From Spartobacteria bacterium (GTDB lineage: Bacteria; Verrucomicrobiota; Verrucomicrobiia; Chthoniobacterales; UBA10450): a DNA stretch of 64,000 nucleotides. Below are positions 26,136 through 48,050 of this stretch, piece by piece. Under the pieces are notes generated by a model, which was not told the DNA's origin, did no database searches, and worked only from the letters and a program-made list of their open reading frames with translations. The DNA lies in the NCBI GenBank assembly GCA_003167365.1, contig PMTM01000006.1:330391-394390 (forward strand), written 5' to 3'. Position numbers and translations under genes: made by a program. How positions within the stretch are numbered: position 1 is the first letter of the stretch; every line of letters starts with the position of its first letter.

Positions 26136-26876
26136 TTACTGGTGAATCCATTCACCGCGCACCGGCGGCTCCAAGCCGGCACGCACGCGCGAAGATTTTC
26201 GGGGAATGTAAACGGGCGTGTTCGCCCCGGGCAAAAGCTCAAGCGCGGCAAGAGTCTCCAAGTCGAGGCGTCCGGTGACTGCCAAACCAACCCGCGCTTG
26301 ATAAGCGCGAAGAGAGAATTCCAAGATCGGTCCATACACGCCGTCGATTTCATGCCGGTAAATGCCGCGTTGCGCCAGCGCTCGTTGGGCGGAAGCGACA
26401 ACATTTCTCTGCGCGTCCGGCGCAGAAGTTTCGTAAGGCGTTCCGGCGAACAAAGCACCGGAAGGAGACGACAGCGCATTATGATCGCGCGTATAGGATT
26501 GTCGGTCTTGCGGCGGGGTTATGAATGGCTGTGCGGGCGCCGGACTGGCGTCTGTAGATTCGCGCTCCGCGTCGCGCAAATCGGCCGCATCCGGCGTCGC
26601 GGACGGTGTATTGGCCGCTGCCGGCTGAGGAGAAGTTGCCGCGCTGCTATGGAGCGAACGCAACGTTGCATCGTCGAGCTCGCCAGTAATCTGCAAGCCG
26701 TTTCGAATTTGGTATCGGCGAATCGCAGCGGTGGTGTCGGAGTTTTTCTCTCCCGTTATTTCGCCGTAATAGAAGCCCTGATCCTTTAGCATCTGTTGCG
26801 CGCTCTCGATCGTTTGATCCGCGCGAACCAACGCGATCGTTCCGAGAAGAACAAAAAGAACGGCTTTGATTTTCAT
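26136..26876 (-). CDS. Exported protein with two peptidoglycan-binding domains
   Basis: A 246-residue protein. ATG 26876 is chosen because AGGAGG sits 8 nt upstream. A signal peptide (AVLFVLLGTIALVRA) is followed by one PG_binding_1-like repeat (about 23-75, AQQMLKDQGFYYGEITGEKN... LQITGELDDAT), a Pro/Ala-rich linker and a second repeat (about 160-215, AQRALAQRGIYRHEIDGVYG... LAVTGRLDLET). These bind cell-wall glycan or peptide. It follows a cell-wall amidase on the same strand 33 nt upstream, so the two probably work together on peptidoglycan. Confidence 0.8.
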   Translation of the reverse strand: MKIKAVLFVLLGTIALVRADQTIESAQQMLKDQGFYYGEITGEKNSDTTAAIRRYQIRNGLQITGELDDATLRSLHSSAATSPQPAAANTPSATPDAADLRDAERESTDASPAPAQPFITPPQDRQSYTRDHNALSSPSGALFAGTPYETSAPDAQRNVVASAQRALAQRGIYRHEIDGVYGPILEFSLRAYQARVGLAVTGRLDLETLAALELLPGANTPVYIPRKSSRVRAGLEPPVRGEWIHQ

Positions 26877-26909: not shown

Positions 26910-27716
26910 TTATTCGGCGCCATCCGGCGCGGTCACCGCCAGGGTGGCCGGGCGCTGTTTCAAGTGGTCCCGATAACTTAGAATTCCTTCGCTGATGGCC
27001 GCCGCGAGTTGTTCGCGGTAATCAACGCTTCCGATTCTGGCAATGTCCTCCTTGTTCGTAAGAAATCCGCCTTCTATCAGCACCGCCGGGTGACGCACAT
27101 TGGCGAGAACAAAAAATTGCTCCGCTTTTGTTCCACGATTTACCGCTTGTGTTCGCGCGATCAGCGAATCCTGAATCAATCCAGCCAGGTCTTGACTTTC
27201 AGTGTTCGGCGATTCGGAAGACACGCGCTGCAGAAAAGGGAGCCAGGAAACAATCGGCGTCCCCGTGGCAGTCTGGTGCGCCGCGTAATAGGTTTCCACT
27301 CCGCTGGAAACGGGCTTGTTACCTTCGTTGAAATGAATGCTGACAAAAACGCAATCGCGCGCGCGATTCGTCAGCGCGGCGCGGTCCGCCAGCGACACAT
27401 AACTATCACCCACTCGCGTCATGGTGGTGGCCAGGCCTTGCGCCTGCAGCAGCCGGTCAACCCGTTGCGCCACGTCCAGCGTCAGATCTTTCTCGAGAAC
27501 GTTTCCGCACATCGCGCCGGAATCCTGCCCCCCATGACCGGGGTCGAGCACGACCAAAGAGAATGGTTCTTGCCGTGTTGACTGGCTTAGCGCACCGATC
27601 TGCGCCGGCCTCGGAATCCACTCCCACCAAACGAGCGACGCGGCCATGAGTAACAAACCGAGCCAGGCGACGACGTTCTGCATCGCCCCGTGGATCCCGA
27701 TTCGTTTTCCAAACAT
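26910..27716 (-). CDS. N-acetylmuramoyl-L-alanine amidase (Amidase_3)
   Basis: A 268-residue zinc amidase that cuts peptide stems from peptidoglycan. One N-terminal transmembrane segment (about 13-30) anchors or exports it. Catalytic motifs are VVLDPGHGGQDSGA near 55 (Zn His), LTLDVAQRV with the preceding Glu, VSIHFN near 125 (Zn His) and VLIEGGFLTN near 213 (catalytic Glu). It starts 12 nt downstream of the prcA stop on the same strand, so it may be read through from the UBact-proteasome operon. Confidence 0.88.
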   Translation of the reverse strand: MFGKRIGIHGAMQNVVAWLGLLLMAASLVWWEWIPRPAQIGALSQSTRQEPFSLVVLDPGHGGQDSGAMCGNVLEKDLTLDVAQRVDRLLQAQGLATTMTRVGDSYVSLADRAALTNRARDCVFVSIHFNEGNKPVSSGVETYYAAHQTATGTPIVSWLPFLQRVSSESPNTESQDLAGLIQDSLIARTQAVNRGTKAEQFFVLANVRHPAVLIEGGFLTNKEDIARIGSVDYREQLAAAISEGILSYRDHLKQRPATLAVTAPDGAE

Positions 27717-27728
27717 CGTCGTTTATCC

Positions 27729-28508
27729 TCAAGCCCGGATAGAAGAGCGCACTTCTTTATCTAACAAAGCTCGGTATCGAATCGCCGTCTTGCTTTCCCG
27801 TTCAAGAATTGCCGCTTCCACTCCGGCCATGCCCAGTTGTTCTTGTCGATGTTTCACGATCGCGGCCTTTTCTGGAAGCTCTTTTACACCGTCGGCGCCG
27901 AGCGCCATATGACCCACGCTCCACGCATCCAGGGCGGTCGTGAGCGTGTCCTCAAGATTGCTTTCCGACGCGTGTTCCGATTTGAGAAACGATTCCATTA
28001 GCTCCGTCGATTGCCGCGTTCCGCTAAGCACGGCAAAATCCTGGCGTGGTTGCGAAAGCGTTCCGCCGTCTGCCGCGATTGCGCCGTCGTATTCAACCCG
28101 TAGAAACAAATCCTCTTCCGGCTTCTCGCCTGCTTCGGCAAAAAGCAGCCGAGCCAGATAGGGCGGACCGTAAATTTGTTCGAACGCGGCCTTCATGACC
28201 GGGCTGAGTGAATAATGCGCCAGTCGTCGCAACGAGACATCCGCGGCCGAACGCGTGAAACCTTCTGTGCTGGCGACTTCAATCGCAGCCATGCGCAGCC
28301 GCTCAATGTCGCCCGGATGTCCGATCGCCCCCATGGCGATGCGGTTATAAATTTCGAAAATCTTTTGGCCGGTTCGGCCCACAGTCAGAAACAGGATCCC
28401 GTCCCGAAAGCCAACTGCGGCGATCGGATTGCCCGAAGCCAGTTGCGTTTCGACATACTCGCGACGATTCGCGATCGCTTCGACCCAGCGGTACGGTTCT
28501 TCGATCAT
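27729..28508 (-). CDS. prcA: Bacterial 20S proteasome alpha subunit
   Basis: A 259-residue alpha-type proteasome subunit, forming the outer rings that gate the chamber. ANRREYVETQLASGNPIAAV and DGILFLTVG near residue 37, then FEIYNRIAMGAIGHPGDIERLR near 51, are typical of actinobacterial-type PrcA. It lacks a catalytic Thr, as alpha subunits do. Its ATG overlaps the prcB stop (ATGA), so the pair is co-translated. No ARC/Mpa ATPase is present in this window. Confidence 0.88.
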   Translation of the reverse strand: MIEEPYRWVEAIANRREYVETQLASGNPIAAVGFRDGILFLTVGRTGQKIFEIYNRIAMGAIGHPGDIERLRMAAIEVASTEGFTRSAADVSLRRLAHYSLSPVMKAAFEQIYGPPYLARLLFAEAGEKPEEDLFLRVEYDGAIAADGGTLSQPRQDFAVLSGTRQSTELMESFLKSEHASESNLEDTLTTALDAWSVGHMALGADGVKELPEKAAIVKHRQEQLGMAGVEAAILERESKTAIRYRALLDKEVRSSIRA

Positions 28509-29338
28509 GCCACTGATTTCTTGAAGACGGCCGCAATCTTTGCTTCCGGCAAAGTGGTAATCCCATCCTGCGAGACGATTTTGATGAGCGGATAGATTTT
28601 CCCGCCTCGATCTACGCCGCCGGTCGCGGTGTCCGTTTCAGCCGCGGTGTCGAGCGCGCGCAACGCCACCGTCACCGCTTCCTCTTCGCTTCGTTTTAGC
28701 AGCGGTTTTTCGCCCCAATTGTTTTCGTAATAAAGTATGCCGCGAACTGCCGGTGAGCCCGAGCCGGTAGCGGCGTAGTCTGTCACTTCAAATTGCGCGC
28801 CCATCGCATCGTAAAAATATAATCGCGCCCCCTCCGGTTTCGAATGGGTATCGTAAGTCGCGAAAATCGGCACGACCATGCCGATGCCTTGCATGGCGAA
28901 GCCAAAATTGTCGCGCAACAATTTCGACAATGCGCGCACTTTTCCGTCAACGCTCATTTCCTGCAATTGCGTGCGGCGAAAATATTGGAAGGAATGCTCG
29001 AGCACGCGCGCCATTTCCCAAGCCGTGGCCGGAACACCCGCGATCGCCATGATCGAATGCCGGTCTATCTCCAGGACCTTGTCGGCGCGATCGTAAACCA
29101 CGGTATTGCCGGACGTGGCACGCCGATCTCCGGCCACGAGCACGCCGCCGCCAAATTTGAATGCGAGGATGGTGGTTGCTTCGGTCGGTTGCCACTCTTG
29201 TCCGCGCGGACTTGTTGCGCGCGCCGCAGAATCGACAATCGCCGGCGCGTTGAAGAGTCCTTTTCGGCGCAGCAGCGCGGGGAAGTCTTCGCTCGCTCCA
29301 GAAAAATTCTGGTCAAGCGCCACGAAGGGTGGCTCCAT
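28505..29338 (-). CDS. prcB: Bacterial 20S proteasome beta subunit
   Basis: A 277-residue beta subunit with an N-terminal propeptide of about 54 residues; autocleavage before Thr55 would expose TTILAFKFGGGV. The catalytic set Thr1, Asp/Lys is seen with GVLVAGDRRATSG and VLEIDRHSIMAIAGVPA. The residue before Thr1 is Ala rather than the usual Gly. It lies between the UBact gene (stop and start overlap as TAATG) and prcA, giving the order UBact-prcB-prcA. Confidence 0.92.
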   Translation of the reverse strand: MEPPFVALDQNFSGASEDFPALLRRKGLFNAPAIVDSAARATSPRGQEWQPTEATTILAFKFGGGVLVAGDRRATSGNTVVYDRADKVLEIDRHSIMAIAGVPATAWEMARVLEHSFQYFRRTQLQEMSVDGKVRALSKLLRDNFGFAMQGIGMVVPIFATYDTHSKPEGARLYFYDAMGAQFEVTDYAATGSGSPAVRGILYYENNWGEKPLLKRSEEEAVTVALRALDTAAETDTATGGVDRGGKIYPLIKIVSQDGITTLPEAKIAAVFKKSVA

Positions 29339-29514
29339 TATTGCCCCGTGCGCTGGCGATAGCGCTTCGACTGGTTGGGGTCAACCTTGCGCATTTTCTT
29401 AAGCAGGTCCTTCGTGTCCGGCCGCGAAATGTCCGGCGAGCGCGGCCCGTCGCCATCGCCCTGTTTCGGACCCCACGGCACAGGATCGGGTGGCCTTTGA
29501 ATGCGCTCCGGCAT
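29338..29514 (-). CDS. ubact: UBact, Pup-like ubiquitin-related protein modifier
   Basis: A 58-residue, charged, low-complexity protein. It starts PERIQRPPDPVPWGPKQGDG, continues with SRPDTKDLLKKMRKVDP and ends YRQRTGQ, which matches UBact, the Pup-related modifier described in Verrucomicrobia, Nitrospirae and related phyla. The C-terminal Gly-Gln implies deamidation to Glu before attachment to lysines, by analogy with mycobacterial Pup and Dop. ATG 29514 is chosen; a TTG at 29547 would add 11 residues. Its TAA overlaps the prcB ATG. Ligase and deamidase genes are not in the window. Confidence 0.88.
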   Translation of the reverse strand: MPERIQRPPDPVPWGPKQGDGDGPRSPDISRPDTKDLLKKMRKVDPNQSKRYRQRTGQ

Positions 29515-29602: not shown

Positions 29603-30079
29603 ATGAAGCTCCTTCCTTTCAACGTGGCCGCGCTGTTGCTCGGCATATTCGTAAGTTCGCATCTTTGCGCTCAGACACTGGCTCGAACGCCTGCTCCGCC
29701 CTCAAACGCCGCGCAACTCGAGGCCTTGACCAAGAAAATCGACGAGCAGAACACGAAGATCGACGCCCTTTCTCAACAAATCCTTAAGCTCGAACAGCAG
29801 ATCGCCAACACGCGGCCCGGCGTCATGATCGGCGAAAGCACTCCGTCACCGACAGTCAGCGCGGCAGTAGCGGCGTCACCGCAATCTGCCAATGGTGACA
29901 ACACCCACACCGTTGCGCGCGGTGAAACGCTTACTTCTATTGCCAAGATGCACGGCGTGAGCGTGAGCGAGCTGCAGAAATTCAATCACATCGAGAACGA
30001 TCGGAAACTGCAGATTGGCCAGACCATTCTGATCCCGACTGCGTCCGCGCCTGCTGCTTCATCATCTCCGGGTGAATGA
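29603..30079 (+). CDS. Exported LysM-domain protein
   Basis: A 158-residue protein. Signal peptide LLPFNVAALLLGIFVSSHLCA (Cys near the end could even be a lipobox variant), then a short coiled coil (QLEALTKKIDEQNTKIDALS), a Thr/Ser/Pro/Ala linker and one LysM domain (about 100-146, HTVARGETLTSIAKMHGVS... LQIGQTILIPT). LysM binds peptidoglycan GlcNAc. ATG 29603 is chosen over upstream in-frame starts that overlap the divergent UBact gene; the two genes share an 88-bp promoter gap. Confidence 0.8.
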   Translation: MKLLPFNVAALLLGIFVSSHLCAQTLARTPAPPSNAAQLEALTKKIDEQNTKIDALSQQILKLEQQIANTRPGVMIGESTPSPTVSAAVAASPQSANGDNTHTVARGETLTSIAKMHGVSVSELQKFNHIENDRKLQIGQTILIPTASAPAASSSPGE

Positions 30080-42588: not shown

Positions 42589-44184
42589 TCATGGTTCGAC
42601 CTTGTAAATGAAGAGCCGCTCGTCATTCGTCCGCCAAAAGTTAAGGGTCGTGGGCGTTGCGACTGTTCCGAACTCCGCCAGAACTTTGAGCGAAGAGATT
42701 TCATGAGACCATGCCGGACGGTAGGATTGCCACGGGTCCGATCGGACATCGAAGTCACCGCCGACAAGGTAATCGAAAGCTCCGCTGTGAAGCAAAGCAG
42801 CGGCCTCTAACCATGGAACAACGGTGATTTTCGCGTCAATTCGCGCCCACTCTGATGGCAGGACGCTCAGTTCCTTGATGGCCAGGACGCGTTGCTGATT
42901 GGCCATGTTTTGGCGCAGCCAGTCGACGGCTTGCCTACGACTATCCTGATGCGCCATTCTCCGATGCACCTGTTGAAATGAGGCAAAGCCGAGCGAACCA
43001 ACGCAGCCACCGATCAAAATAGTAGTCACGCCGTAGCGGAGCCAGAGATGTGCGCCACGACGCGCCCAGCGAATGAATTCGACGAATGTTATGGCTGCGG
43101 CAATGCAAACAAGCGGAACAAGTGGCAACAAACTCCGAAACGGTTGAAAAGGCTTGCCCAGGTAGGGCGCAACAAGCATTGAGCCAAAGAGAATCCAACC
43201 AATCGCAACGATCCGCGTTTTTTCTTGTCGCAACATCAAGACGACCCCGGCGCAACTAGCCAGCAGCAAGGGCCATCCCAGCTCGAAAATCGAGATCGCC
43301 TGAGCGAAGTAGCTCTGCCCGGAACGAATCTGTTCGTAGGATCGAATGTTTGCTACAACGTCGCGCCAGACCGTGGCCGGTCGGAAAAAGGTCATTGGCG
43401 CGCCTACTAGGATTCCCAAAAAAAATCCGCCGCCGGCCAAGAAAAGTAGCCGAAGACGACTTCGCCAATCGACGCCGAGGAGAAGGATGCTTGTCATAAC
43501 AGCTGCGCCCACCGCCGCGGTCTGGTACTTCGAGGCGAAAGCAAGTCCGGTCGCGAGCCCTGCAAATCCGGCGTTTCGCCAAATTGGTTCGCTCGCCGAT
43601 TGGATTCGTTCACAGAAATAAATCGCCACGAGAGCAAAAAAGGTGGCGAACGTATCGACGATGACGATCGAGCCGCGGGTTACGAGGGCGGGACACACCG
43701 CTATAAGAAGCATGGCGAGAAGGCCGGCGTGGTCGCTGGCCAGCCGCGCCGCGATAATTCCGGCAAGAATCACGGTGGCGATACTCAAACAAGCGGTCAC
43801 GGTCCGTCCAGCGAGGAGCAATTCCACCGGCGCGATGAAGTCATAATTCATCTTCGAGCTCGGAAAATTGCGCTCGTTCGGCAAATCTTTTTGAAAGTGA
43901 TGACCATGGAAATAGCGATAGAGTGGGCCATAAAGAAAAAGCGCCGCGCCCGCTGAATATGCGGGAAGTGCTGGCAAACCATACCAGTAAACATCGAGAC
44001 TTCTGTGGTTGAACGAGTCGATCGTCTGATGCAGCACGTGGCCTTCGTCGATATAATCGCTGTAGGGTAACCCGGATCGAATCGGGACAATTCGCAACAG
44101 GACAGCCAGGAGAAGAATCGCGCTCCAGCACATCCAGTAGAAAACCGGACGTGATGAAGACGATTCATGCGGCGACATGCTCAT
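42589..44184 (-). CDS. Polytopic GT-C-type glycosyltransferase (GT39/ArnT-like)
   Basis: A 531-residue membrane protein with about ten helices. The first periplasmic loop has YSDYIDEGHVLHQTID near 40, an acidic Asp/Glu motif as in GT-C enzymes that use lipid-linked sugars. IWRNAGFAGLATGLAFASKYQT near 205 is a typical family segment. A soluble C-terminal domain (about 400-531) follows. Donor and acceptor are unknown; cell-surface glycan or protein O-glycosylation are options. It is divergent from rlmI. Confidence 0.75.
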   Translation of the reverse strand: MSMSPHESSSSRPVFYWMCWSAILLLAVLLRIVPIRSGLPYSDYIDEGHVLHQTIDSFNHRSLDVYWYGLPALPAYSAGAALFLYGPLYRYFHGHHFQKDLPNERNFPSSKMNYDFIAPVELLLAGRTVTACLSIATVILAGIIAARLASDHAGLLAMLLIAVCPALVTRGSIVIVDTFATFFALVAIYFCERIQSASEPIWRNAGFAGLATGLAFASKYQTAAVGAAVMTSILLLGVDWRSRLRLLFLAGGGFFLGILVGAPMTFFRPATVWRDVVANIRSYEQIRSGQSYFAQAISIFELGWPLLLASCAGVVLMLRQEKTRIVAIGWILFGSMLVAPYLGKPFQPFRSLLPLVPLVCIAAAITFVEFIRWARRGAHLWLRYGVTTILIGGCVGSLGFASFQQVHRRMAHQDSRRQAVDWLRQNMANQQRVLAIKELSVLPSEWARIDAKITVVPWLEAAALLHSGAFDYLVGGDFDVRSDPWQSYRPAWSHEISSLKVLAEFGTVATPTTLNFWRTNDERLFIYKVEP

Positions 44185-44249
44185 ATAATTCTCCGAAGGA
44201 ATTGAATGTTGGACGAGTGTGGCTGGACATTCAACGTTTGCTTCTGCTT

Positions 44250-45419
44250 ATGGCTGGAATCGTCGTCAAACCACGCGCTCGAATTTTTCACGGACACGAC
44301 TGGGTCTTTTCCGGCGAAGTACTGAAGGTCTTCGGTAATCCGGAGGATGGCGACGTGATTTCGCTGAAAGACGGCAAAGATCATTTGATCGGCAGCGCGA
44401 TTTACAATTCGAAGTCGCAAATCGTGGCGCGGCGGTTCTCGCGACGGAAGCAGGACCTCGACCTTGATTTCTTCAAACGCCGGATCGCGCAGGCGGCGGA
44501 ATATCGCGAGCGCCGACAGGTCGATCCCAAACTTTGTCGCGTGGTCTGGAGCGAGAGCGACGGGTTGCCGGGCGTGATTGTCGATCGATACGGCGAGCAT
44601 TTTGTTCTGCAAACACTTACGCTCGCGATGGACATGCGGAAAGATTTGATCGCCGATGCGATTGTCGATCTTTTCGGGGGCGTCACGATCGTTGAACGCA
44701 ATGACGCGCCGGTCCGGCGCGCGGAAGGAATGGATTTGCGGATCGGAGTGTTGCGCGGCGAAATGCCGGCCGAAATCAAGATCGACATCGGCGGCTTGAA
44801 ATTCGACGTCGATCTTTTAGGCGCGCAGAAGACCGGTTTTTATCTCGATCAAGCGCGCAATTACGAAGCGGTTGCACAGCTCGCTCGCGGTCGTCGCGTC
44901 CTGGATTGTTTTACCAACCAAGGCGCCTTTGCTCTGGCGTGCGCGCGGGCCGGAGCGGCGGAAGTCATCGGCGTGGAGGAAAATTCGGAGAACATCGAGG
45001 CGGCAAAGAGAAACGCGGAGCGAAATCAGTTAAGCGTGCAATGGATCAAGCAAGATGTTTTTCAATTCCTGCGCGCGGCGGAGAAGGCAGAGGCGCAATA
45101 CGATCTGATCGTTCTCGATCCGCCTTCGTTTACCAAGACGAAGGGTGGATTGCGCGATGCGCTGCGTGGTTATCGCGAGTTGCACGTGCGCGCTTTCAAG
45201 CTGCTTTCCAAGGATGGTTTACTGGCAACGTTTTCGTGCTCCCATCACGTGGGTGAAAACGTGTTTGTGCAAACAATTGCTGACGCGCTGGTCGATGCCC
45301 GTCGATCGGCGAGAAAGTTGCGCCGTTTCGAACAAGCGCCCGATCATCCGGTTCTACCGACGCTCCCGGAGACGGAGTATTTCAAAGGGTTCTTGCTCGA
45401 AATGATGCCGGGCAGATAG
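44250..45419 (+). CDS. rlmI: Class I SAM-dependent rRNA methyltransferase, RlmI-like
   Basis: A 389-residue protein. An N-terminal PUA-like domain (about 1-75, KPRARIFHGHDWVFSGEV) leads to a methyltransferase domain with VLDCFTNQGAFALACARAGA near 216, VEENSENIEAAKRNAERN, VLDPPSFTKTKGGL near 290 and TFSCSHHV near 333. E. coli RlmI makes m5C1962 in 23S rRNA. ATG 44250 is chosen by homology, ignoring a longer frame to 44151. A decayed partial copy lies at 46838-47060. Confidence 0.88.
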   Translation: MAGIVVKPRARIFHGHDWVFSGEVLKVFGNPEDGDVISLKDGKDHLIGSAIYNSKSQIVARRFSRRKQDLDLDFFKRRIAQAAEYRERRQVDPKLCRVVWSESDGLPGVIVDRYGEHFVLQTLTLAMDMRKDLIADAIVDLFGGVTIVERNDAPVRRAEGMDLRIGVLRGEMPAEIKIDIGGLKFDVDLLGAQKTGFYLDQARNYEAVAQLARGRRVLDCFTNQGAFALACARAGAAEVIGVEENSENIEAAKRNAERNQLSVQWIKQDVFQFLRAAEKAEAQYDLIVLDPPSFTKTKGGLRDALRGYRELHVRAFKLLSKDGLLATFSCSHHVGENVFVQTIADALVDARRSARKLRRFEQAPDHPVLPTLPETEYFKGFLLEMMPGR

Positions 45420-45423
45420 AGAG

Positions 45424-46806
45424 ATGAAAACGCACGAAGATTCTGTGAGTGCCTGGCGGCGAACCTTCATAGCTTGCTTTTTCCTCTTCTGTATCGGCGG
45501 GGCTTATCATGTTCTGTTTCTGCGAACGTTCTCGCACTGGTGGTTTGAAGATGATCCGGTCCTTTTCGCTTTCGTTCGCACAATCGCAAATCCGCTAAGG
45601 TTCTTTTTTGACCGCAGCGCCATCCAAAGTTTCAGCGCCTCTTTGGTGCCGATGCAGTCGGTCTCAATGTGGATCGATAGTGCGATCGCATATCGGAGCG
45701 TTCGCTTTGCGCAAATCCATCATCTTTTCAGCCTGCAGGTAACATTGATTTTGCTATACATCGTTTTGCGCGACTTTGGGCTAAGGAGCCGGGCCGCTTT
45801 TGCGCTCGTGCTGCTTTGGCTTTGTTTGCCCGCCACGGTATCGGTCAACGAATTTCTTTCCGCCAGACATTATTTGGAAGGGTTTGGTTGGAGCCTCGGT
45901 GCTGTTCTTGTCGCGCAAAAGATAGGCCAGAGACGCTGGCGAGAAACGGCACCCACAATTGCGCTTCTGTTTGTAATGCTCGCGATCGGAGCGCTTTTCA
46001 AGGAGCTCTATGTGGTCACCGTGCCGTTGTTCGTGTTTTTCTATCTTTATTCGTGCCGGCGATACATGGCGGCCGGAATCGCTCTTCTGGTGATACCGCT
46101 TTATGGCCTTTATCGAGTTTGGGCCTTCGGATCGAGATTGCCCTTGTTCATGCCGTTGGTGGAAACGCGCGCCTACCTCAAGTTCCTAGGCCGATTCCCT
46201 TATATTTTCGCGGGCAACGCCGGCGGCTATCTGATCATTATTGCGCTGGGGCTGCTTTGCTTGTGGCGCTTCCGGAATATCAATCTCCGGATCGCGGGCT
46301 GTGCGCTACTCCTGCTGTGCACTGCTCTTGCCACGATTTATCCAACGACTTTTGCCATCAGCCGCGACTGGCTCATTCACGGCACTTGGTACCGGGTAAT
46401 GTTTTTCGTGAACACCATCTTTTTGTTAGGCGGCGGTTATTGGCTAGAGAAAACGCAAACGCGCTCCGCGCGCGTGGCGGCATTGGTTTTGAGCGGTGTA
46501 ATTCTGATTGAGGGAGGCTATGTCACGGAGCGACATTGGCACGATGAGATGGTTCGTTATAAACGCGAGGGTCGATATTATCTTCAACATAATGACCGGC
46601 TCATCTATTCCGAGCTGGCTGCCTACTGGTATTTGGGTGGTATGCAAACGCTCTATGAGATCGTGCCGCGGCACTATATCACGTCCCGAGAAGCCGGACC
46701 GCTTTCGCCAGAGCAAGCCGCGAGTTATCAAACAGTATGGCGTTATCGGGACGGGACCTTTGTGGAAGATCGACAACTTTACGAAAAACTCCGCGGCCAA
46801 CGATGA
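45424..46806 (+). CDS. Polytopic membrane protein, possible GT-C glycosyltransferase
   Basis: A 460-residue protein, four bases after rlmI. About ten transmembrane helices; the first outer loop holds WWFEDDPVLFAF near 39, an acidic motif like that of GT-C transferases. A soluble tail (about 370-460) ends with DGTFVEDRQLYEKL. The family is not recognised with certainty. It sits exactly between rlmI and the rlmI remnant, so its presence may be tied to the duplication. Confidence 0.6.
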   Translation: MKTHEDSVSAWRRTFIACFFLFCIGGAYHVLFLRTFSHWWFEDDPVLFAFVRTIANPLRFFFDRSAIQSFSASLVPMQSVSMWIDSAIAYRSVRFAQIHHLFSLQVTLILLYIVLRDFGLRSRAAFALVLLWLCLPATVSVNEFLSARHYLEGFGWSLGAVLVAQKIGQRRWRETAPTIALLFVMLAIGALFKELYVVTVPLFVFFYLYSCRRYMAAGIALLVIPLYGLYRVWAFGSRLPLFMPLVETRAYLKFLGRFPYIFAGNAGGYLIIIALGLLCLWRFRNINLRIAGCALLLLCTALATIYPTTFAISRDWLIHGTWYRVMFFVNTIFLLGGGYWLEKTQTRSARVAALVLSGVILIEGGYVTERHWHDEMVRYKREGRYYLQHNDRLIYSELAAYWYLGGMQTLYEIVPRHYITSREAGPLSPEQAASYQTVWRYRDGTFVEDRQLYEKLRGQR

Positions 46807-46837
46807 GCTTCCTCCGACGCCGATGATTCGGCGACCG

Positions 46838-47060
46838 CTGGCAATGGACGTGCGGAAGGATTTGATCGCCGACGCGATTGCCGATCTTTTCGGCAGCGTC
46901 ACGATTGTTGAACGCAATGACGCCGCTCTGGTCGACGCCCGGCGCTCGGCGAGAAAATTGCGCCGTTTCGAACAAGCGTCTGATCATCCGGTTCTACCGA
47001 CGCTCCCGGAGACCGAGTATTTTAAAGGGTTCTTGCTAGAAATGGTGCCGGGCCGTGAGG
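46838..47060 (+). pseudogene. Remnant of a duplicated rlmI gene
   Basis: Two blocks of the nearby rlmI fused in frame. The first (LAMDVRKDLIADAIADLF, to VERNDA) matches about 44623-44709; the second (ALVDARRSARKLRRFEQ to FLLEMVPGR) matches about 45281-45416. About 570 bp between them is lost. In the parent, TGACGCGC occurs at both deletion ends (44702 and 45281), fitting deletion at a short direct repeat. The stop codon is gone. It overlaps nothing but reaches within 10 nt of the next gene end. Confidence 0.85.
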
Positions 47061-47069
47061 GAGGCGGTG

Positions 47070-48050
47070 CTAGGATTCGGCGACGGCGAAAAGATGAGAG
47101 TGCAAAGCAACTTTATCTCGTGTGTGCAGCGGATGTTCCGCATAGGAGAAAACCTCTACCTGTCGAAAATGTTGCTCGAGCAAAGTGCGTAAGCTTGTGC
47201 GCGTGAAAAAATTCTTGTGACTGGCTTCGAGCAAATGCCAGGGAACGGCCTCCCAATCCTTGAAATAGGGAAGCACTTCCAGGTTCGGCACGGAGAACAA
47301 TGCGCGACCGCGAATAACGCGCGCGATTTCGCCGAGAAAAGAGTCCGGGTCTTCGATGTGCTCGAGCACTTCGATGCAAATCGCGTGGTCGAACTCGCGA
47401 TCGACGGAAAGAAGCCGCGGAATAGCCCCTTTCAATTTTCGATAAGGCAACTTCCGGCGTTCGAGTATTTCAATGCAGTAGTCGTTCACTTCCAAACCCA
47501 GCCATTTGTGTCCCGCCTCGATCAGTCCTGGACCGTAAGCACCCGCGCCGCATCCAACATCGACAATCGAACTTCGCGGCGGCAGGTATTCGAGAACCAG
47601 CCGGAGCGCTTCGGGCGAAGGTTGTTCGGCCGGCGGTCCGGAACCGTAAATATCTTTGCGATGCAGCATCTTCGCCTGATCCGGCGGAACGACCTCGCCA
47701 TAATGGCGCTGGTGCAACCGAGCGGGCACGAGTTGCACGGAAACCTCGCCTAATTTTTCCGCGCCCTTGCCGTCTTGGGCGGAAAACGTAATCGCGATAA
47801 TGACCGGGCGCGGCGCGGTGATCGGTTCGGGAAATTTCGCCAGAATTTTGTATCCAAGCCGTTGTTCTTCCGAGCTTACTTGTCTGAGTATTCTGGTTTC
47901 GCCGATACAGATATCATCGATCCAAGCGCGAACGAGCAGAGGAGACGCACCGTTTTCGGGCACGACAATTGTCCCGGCGATGGAGATGCATTGATCGTAA
48001 ACGTTTTCGTTCACGCGCGGGCATTCCAATTGATGGTCGATCTTGCGCAT
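47070..48050 (-). CDS. SAM-dependent methyltransferase with N-terminal accessory domain
   Basis: A 326-residue protein. Residues about 1-125 form a beta-rich domain of unknown type (CISIAGTIVVPENGASPLLV...). Residues about 145-300 are a class I methyltransferase with IVDVGCGAGAYGPGL near 167, EVNDYCIEIL, AICIEVLEHIEDPDSFL near 222 and RGRALFSVPN. The combination recalls methyltransferases in glycan or glycosyltransferase clusters. ATG 48050 is chosen; one 16 codons upstream is possible. Confidence 0.78.
   Translation of the reverse strand: MRKIDHQLECPRVNENVYDQCISIAGTIVVPENGASPLLVRAWIDDICIGETRILRQVSSEEQRLGYKILAKFPEPITAPRPVIIAITFSAQDGKGAEKLGEVSVQLVPARLHQRHYGEVVPPDQAKMLHRKDIYGSGPPAEQPSPEALRLVLEYLPPRSSIVDVGCGAGAYGPGLIEAGHKWLGLEVNDYCIEILERRKLPYRKLKGAIPRLLSVDREFDHAICIEVLEHIEDPDSFLGEIARVIRGRALFSVPNLEVLPYFKDWEAVPWHLLEASHKNFFTRTSLRTLLEQHFRQVEVFSYAEHPLHTRDKVALHSHLFAVAES

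Follow-up and report, generated by a model that had tools for sequence, protein, structure and literature searches.

A UBact-proteasome operon in a Verrucomicrobiota bacterium and a candidate tyrosine-free docking tail of its ATPase

The window, a 64,000-nucleotide stretch of DNA analyzed as a whole, comes from a soil bacterium of the phylum Verrucomicrobiota, order Chthoniobacterales, whose genome assembly (3.13 Mb in 24 contigs, approximately 100% complete) holds a complete gene set for protein tagging and a proteasome. The following genes lie at the locus:

29338 to 29514, minus strand: UBact, a 58-amino-acid Pup-like modifier (PF20513 and NF033388, both above the curated cutoffs)
28505 to 29338, minus strand: PrcB, 20S proteasome beta subunit (PF00227, TIGR03690, catalytic triad)
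27729 to 28508, minus strand: PrcA, 20S proteasome alpha subunit (TIGR03691, phmmer, Foldseek, pocket alignment)
26910 to 27716, minus strand: exported N-acetylmuramoyl-L-alanine amidase (Amidase_3; PF01520, 2e-49)
26136 to 26876, minus strand: exported peptidoglycan-binding protein with two PG_binding_1 domains (PF01471, 1.8e-28)
29603 to 30079, plus strand: LysM protein with a signal peptide, divergently transcribed (PF01476, 3.8e-15)

From 29514 to 27729 on the minus strand, the gene order is UBact, prcB, prcA, and the stops and starts overlap at the junctions CAATAATGG (TAATG) and GGCATGATC (ATGA), as in a tight operon. The same order recurs in approximately 64 loci of related genomes. The initial annotation of this DNA had given the genes these coordinates, an RTGQ ending, a cleavage site at Thr55 and the TAATG and ATGA overlaps, all of which were found on the minus strand; the identity that it proposed for the three products was borne out by profiles, PDB sequence search and predicted fold.

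The modifier ends in RYRQRTGQ and scored 80.5 bits against Pfam PF20513 (cutoff, 27.8) and 81.3 bits against NCBIfam NF033388 (cutoff, 35). Its Gly-Gln/Glu end (RTGQ here) is what conjugation demands, and its attachment to substrate lysines is predicted. UBact was found directly before prcB in 64 of 64 related loci reaching that gene, and the median dN/dS of the 58-codon frame, approximately 0.04 in 51 equal-length sequences, indicates strong purifying selection. Since the dN/dS is this low and the frame recurs in approximately 64 related loci, it is not a chance one; the profile scores and the conserved position also rule out a chance ORF. Thus, the frame is conserved in relatives, a point on which the initial annotation had staked its proposal. 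Of the 64 related sequences, 57 end in Gln and 7 in Glu, and even close relatives differ in this residue; the requirement for deamidation by Dop was therefore lost or gained repeatedly. In one related genome, a second, divergent UBact (MSEQTQRSPIQ...RYRQRSGQ; L168, G040:C227, 8609 to 8785, plus strand) was detected in addition to the usual one. It has no adjoining proteasome genes and is flanked by an LTXXQ-like protein and an L,D-transpeptidase (YkuD).

PrcB matched PF00227 (E value, 1.7e-29), the M. tuberculosis beta subunit (111 bits) and TIGR03690 (172 bits, below the cutoff of 191.9). It has a 54-residue propeptide (residues 1 to 54) followed by the catalytic Thr55, with D71 and K87 as the equivalents of Asp17 and Lys33, and the three residues T55, D71 and K87 are kept in every homologue covering them. 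PrcA scored 21.5 bits against PF00227, slightly below the cutoff of 22.4, and 85 bits against the bacterial 20S alpha model TIGR03691 (E value, 4.8e-24; cutoff, 139); phmmer gave 56 bits to M. tuberculosis PrcA. A Foldseek search with the predicted fold, a model of moderate confidence (pLDDT, 66; pTM, 0.72), returned M. tuberculosis PrcA chains as the best PDB matches (E value, 6.6e-13). The bacterial alpha profile, the PDB sequence search and the predicted fold thus agree in indicating that PrcA is a divergent proteasome alpha subunit. Since both subunits score below the TIGR03690 and TIGR03691 cutoffs, they are recognizable but divergent and not equivalogs of the actinobacterial type, and because PrcA is divergent, gate details may differ.

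The initial annotation had called the set split and had made its proposal depend on PafA/Dop and ARC homologues elsewhere in the genome. Indeed, the ATPase and two PafA/Dop-family genes were found by profile search on two other contigs, C9 and C14:

C9, 142784 to 144466, same strand as Dop: ARC (TIGR03689, PDB matches)
C9, 139512 to 141035, same strand as ARC: Dop (TIGR03688, Dop loop)
C14, 52624 to 54045: probable PafA (PafA models, alignment, synteny)

The Pup_ligase-family and ARC matches rule out an absence of the tagging enzymes, and the split is, precisely, one into ARC-Dop, UBact-PrcB-PrcA and PafA on three contigs. The C9 ligase-family gene reached 492.7 against TIGR03688 (cutoff, 492.3) and 411 bits to solved Dop versus 256 to PafA. 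It has D100 in a DHAHPEY motif and 80 residues between ETEYG and NGxRY (the Dop loop), where the C14 gene has only 50; on sequence grounds, its assignment as Dop is secure. The C14 gene scored 415 bits against PF03136 (cutoff, 25), and its best model was TIGR03686 (329.5), although this is below the cutoff of 551. PafA models scored above Dop models, the gene aligned at full length to solved PafA, and D70 is present. It is probably PafA, given the higher-scoring of two subthreshold models, the full-length alignment, the missing Dop loop and the synteny of PafA with prcA seen at the related loci L201 and L170.

ARC scored 462.7 bits against TIGR03689, below the cutoff of 504.75, and its best PDB matches were Mpa, to which it aligned over residues 51 to 549. 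The coiled coil, the OB domains, the AAA module and the beta-grasp region were all found, and the predicted structure comprises a helix (37 to 73), strands (79 to 195) and the AAA module. The pore-loop motif (aligned residues 296 to 304) reads ILNMWVGES in the lineage, with Trp, versus LLNKFVGET in Mpa, with Phe. ARC and Dop are separated by a same-strand gene for an exported-looking protein of 300 amino acids (NF038127, DVUA0089 family; L005, 9837 to 10739, minus strand, G000:C9). A second AAA match, at C1:605988, was rejected as a proteasomal ATPase: it covers the AAA core only, and its position and 676-amino-acid frame fit FtsH. The TIGR03689 search of the genome returned no CDC48-like ATPase, and a search for Bpa/PafE, run without a working positive control, gave no match.

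Of 58 relatives, 43 carry UBact and 44 carry a Pup_ligase-family gene; 42 have both and 13 have neither. Two carry the ligase without UBact and one carries UBact without ligase or ARC, all of these being draft genomes. The latter, G057 (L164), is a 96% complete draft with UBact, PrcB and PrcA, in which UBact is lengthened to 73 amino acids by a Gly-rich insert. In its family, G041 has no UBact, Pup_ligase or ARC, and G050 has all three; loss in progress or missing contigs are possible explanations. In an even draw of 388 genomes from across the phylum, clear matches to UBact were confined to the order of the host and one further family, which we infer from its gene content to be the Methylacidiphilaceae, in line with PMC2588565. 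There, ARC-Dop-UBact-PrcB-PrcA-PafA form a contiguous, uninterrupted block, as in Actinobacteria, an arrangement that supports the identification of Dop and PafA. In the order of the host, the ARC-to-PafA block is broken up, into three loci in the studied genome. Since another family of the order (L170, G039) still has PafA close to prcA, the breakup was probably stepwise.

The two genes that follow prcA also keep their place. The amidase ATG (27716) lies 12 nt after the prcA stop, and the likely ATG of the peptidoglycan-binding gene (26876; ORF open from 26900) lies 33 nt after the amidase stop. Among 57 loci of the family with enough sequence, the first same-strand gene beyond prcA encodes Amidase_3 in 56, and a peptidoglycan-binding gene follows prcA likewise in 56. 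In other families of the order (L164, L165, L167, L169 and L170), the amidase is often missing and the peptidoglycan-binding gene stays near prcA. On the 12- and 33-nt gaps, the initial annotation had raised shared transcription with the two genes. Because the same-strand order is conserved in 56 of 57 loci, a common prcA-amidase-peptidoglycan-binding transcript is likely, though not proven. A simple scan showed no terminator between prcA and the amidase gene; terminator-like sites were overall fewer than in shuffled sequences, so this absence says little. Since their N termini mark both products as exported, neither is likely to take a direct part in tagging in the cytosol. That prcBA has stayed linked to a gene for an exported peptidoglycan-binding protein offers a second lead, though a weaker one. 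On the other side, the LysM ORF is open from 29501 and overlaps the UBact start, but its signal peptide points to ATG 29603; this divergent neighbor is conserved in the family. A start at 29603 would leave approximately 88 bp for two divergent promoters. Elsewhere in the window, two stretches of a plus-strand ORF (46508 to 47206), e.g., RKDLIADAI.DLFG.VTIVERNDA and ARKLRRFEQA.DHPVLPTLPETEYFKGFLLEM, repeat parts of a methyltransferase-like gene (44151 to 45419, plus strand), and the ORF looks like a partial, decayed duplicate.

Taken together, the locus is, with a probability of roughly 0.8, the core operon of a complete tagging-proteasome system of the UBact (Pup) type, whose ARC docks by a Val/Ile tail. 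Judged by homology, Dop would convert the Gln at the UBact C terminus to Glu by deamidation, and PafA would use ATP to link this Glu to lysines of the substrate. ARC would capture the UBact part of the tagged substrate with its N-terminal coiled coil, unfold the substrate and thread it into the 20S chamber formed by PrcAB; there, Thr55 of the beta subunit, released from the propeptide, would cleave it. UBact would be recycled by Dop. In line with the proposal of the initial annotation, tagging and proteasomal breakdown thus probably operate in the host. That UBact instead tags mainly for storage, localization or amino acid recycling, with degradation by PrcAB secondary or independent of tagging, is improbable: PafA and Dop have indeed moved away from prcBA in the studied genome, and Corynebacterium glutamicum, which was matched in our Pup_ligase control search, consistent with its pupylation, tags proteins and has no proteasome, but UBact overlaps prcB as one transcription unit at all loci examined, ARC is present and the catalytic residues of the proteasome are intact.

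The predicted contact between ARC and the alpha ring differs from the known one. In M. tuberculosis, the C-terminal GQYL of Mpa opens the proteasome; the tyrosine touches Arg26 or Glu119 of the alpha subunit, the carboxylate meets Lys52, and Arg26 and Lys52 are required for PafE-driven degradation (PMC9599533). The studied ARC ends in SSSSGVI, without GQYL or a penultimate tyrosine. We compared 37 distinct ARC ends drawn from Chthoniobacterales and Methylacidiphilaceae. The last two residues are Val or Ile in all 37 (33 of the VI/II type with a final Ile, 4 VV), the GQYL/HbYX tyrosine occurs in none, and only one has an aromatic residue among its last four. Entropy is 0.49 bit at each of the last two positions versus 1.8 to 3.3 bits over the preceding linker. 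In the alpha pocket, the equivalents of Lys52 and Asp144 are kept in 80 of 80 lineage sequences; that of Arg26 is Arg in none (Pro, Ser, Ala, Thr, Gly or Gln instead) and that of Glu119 is Glu in none (Leu in 79, Ile in 1), these counts, like those of the tails, being of related sequences rather than independent events and amounting to a single combined difference that separates two large clades. In the studied PrcA, Lys49 (Lys52 in M. tuberculosis) and Asp141 (Asp144) are kept, and Ser25 (Arg26) and Leu118 (Glu119) are changed. The actinobacterial comparison comprised one Nonomuraea chromosome and one Tsukamurella record, with two alpha sequences as pocket controls: the ARCs of both end in GQYL, and the Nonomuraea alpha subunit retains all four pocket residues (R, K, E and D).

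Because all 37 tails and all 80 pockets are changed, the Mpa-type tyrosine and both of its alpha contacts are missing together; the backbone and carboxylate contacts remain. On these residue patterns, we lean slightly toward the reading that, in UBact-bearing Verrucomicrobiota, ARC opens the proteasome by a tyrosine-free aliphatic [VI][VI] tail in a rebuilt alpha pocket, which would give AAA proteasomal motors a third docking code in addition to HbYX and GQYL. In this reading, the alpha ring would receive a short, flexible tail with Val/Ile-Ile/Val as its last residues, the terminal carboxylate contacting Lys49 and the tail backbone contacting Asp141. The aliphatic side chains would replace the tyrosine of GQYL, matched by the absence of Arg26 and the replacement of Glu119 by Leu. 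Gate opening without a tyrosine is plausible, since a hydrophobic group in the neighboring pocket alone can open the archaeal 20S gate (PMC12352868).

Alternatively, the tail and pocket differences could be ordinary inherited variation that grew with distance from Actinobacteria and has no functional meaning. PrcA is only distantly like the actinobacterial alpha subunit (56 bits), so any residue may differ. The changes are, however, directional, both tyrosine contacts being lost everywhere and both backbone/carboxylate contacts invariant everywhere, and the tail dipeptide is fixed inside a variable linker; we regard this explanation as unlikely, though the strongest of the alternatives. Somewhat less likely still, the lineage ARC no longer docks by its tail, the Val-Ile end serving another use (e.g., as a degron or in packing inside ARC) and docking proceeding via the beta-grasp domain or an adaptor. 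GQYL is absent here, and the beta-grasp domain, which adds alpha-ring contacts in M. tuberculosis (PMC9599533), is retained. Against this, the last two ARC residues hardly vary next to a drifting linker, the alpha Lys and Asp that receive the M. tuberculosis tail are invariant, and the adaptor Bpa was not matched in the search mentioned above, which had no working positive control.

The system is a known one, and UBact with a proteasome is already known from Verrucomicrobia. The UBact system of Gram-negative bacteria reportedly has Verrucomicrobia among its hosts; the 2017 paper on it by Lehmann and colleagues (BBRC 483:946) is cited in PMC12751074. The studied genome agrees with this system in having UBact, by Pfam and NCBIfam, beside prcB-prcA and PafA, Dop and ARC in the genome, but differs in its three separate loci and an ARC ending in Val-Ile. 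With the actinobacterial Pup-proteasome (Mpa/ARC, Dop, Pup, PrcB, PrcA and PafA in M. tuberculosis), it has in common the five enzyme and chamber families, a deamidation-ready C-terminal Gln and the ancestral gene order. The modifier, however, is UBact (RTGQ) rather than Pup (GGQ/GGE), the lineage ARC lacks GQYL and the alpha subunit lacks Arg26 and Glu119, and Bpa is unmatched in our uncontrolled search. Pup-type loci were reported in Methylacidiphilum in 2008 by Iyer et al. (PMC2588565), who found every Pup gene next to a gene of the PafA family. The Methylacidiphilum loci belong to the same phylum and modifier family, and their ARC similarly ends in Val-Val, but they are contiguous (L201 to L204), whereas UBact is not adjacent to a PafA-family gene in the studied genome. 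The divergent alpha and beta subunits fit the Gram-negative proteasome cluster of armatimonadetes, nitrospirae and verrucomicrobia, as outlined in part of Fuchs et al. 2017 (PMC5666114), a part that does not treat the ATPase tail. The 11S activators PA26/PA28 are a precedent for opening the 20S gate without HbYX, although they are non-ATPases unrelated to ARC (PMC12352868). We found no earlier description of the altered ARC tail and alpha pocket or of the dispersed genes in openly accessible literature; as far as this literature shows, the dispersal and, above all, the tail and pocket are undescribed so far.

UBact systems are predicted and biochemically barely studied, and the studied genome and its relatives offer a clean, complete test set. 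If the docking reading is true, ARC tails should be interchangeable within the clade but not with the GQYL tails of Mycobacterium, and exchanging the two alpha residues should shift the tail preference. The pairing of tail and pocket thereby bears on which contacts really open the 20S gate, a live question (PMC9599533, PMC12352868).
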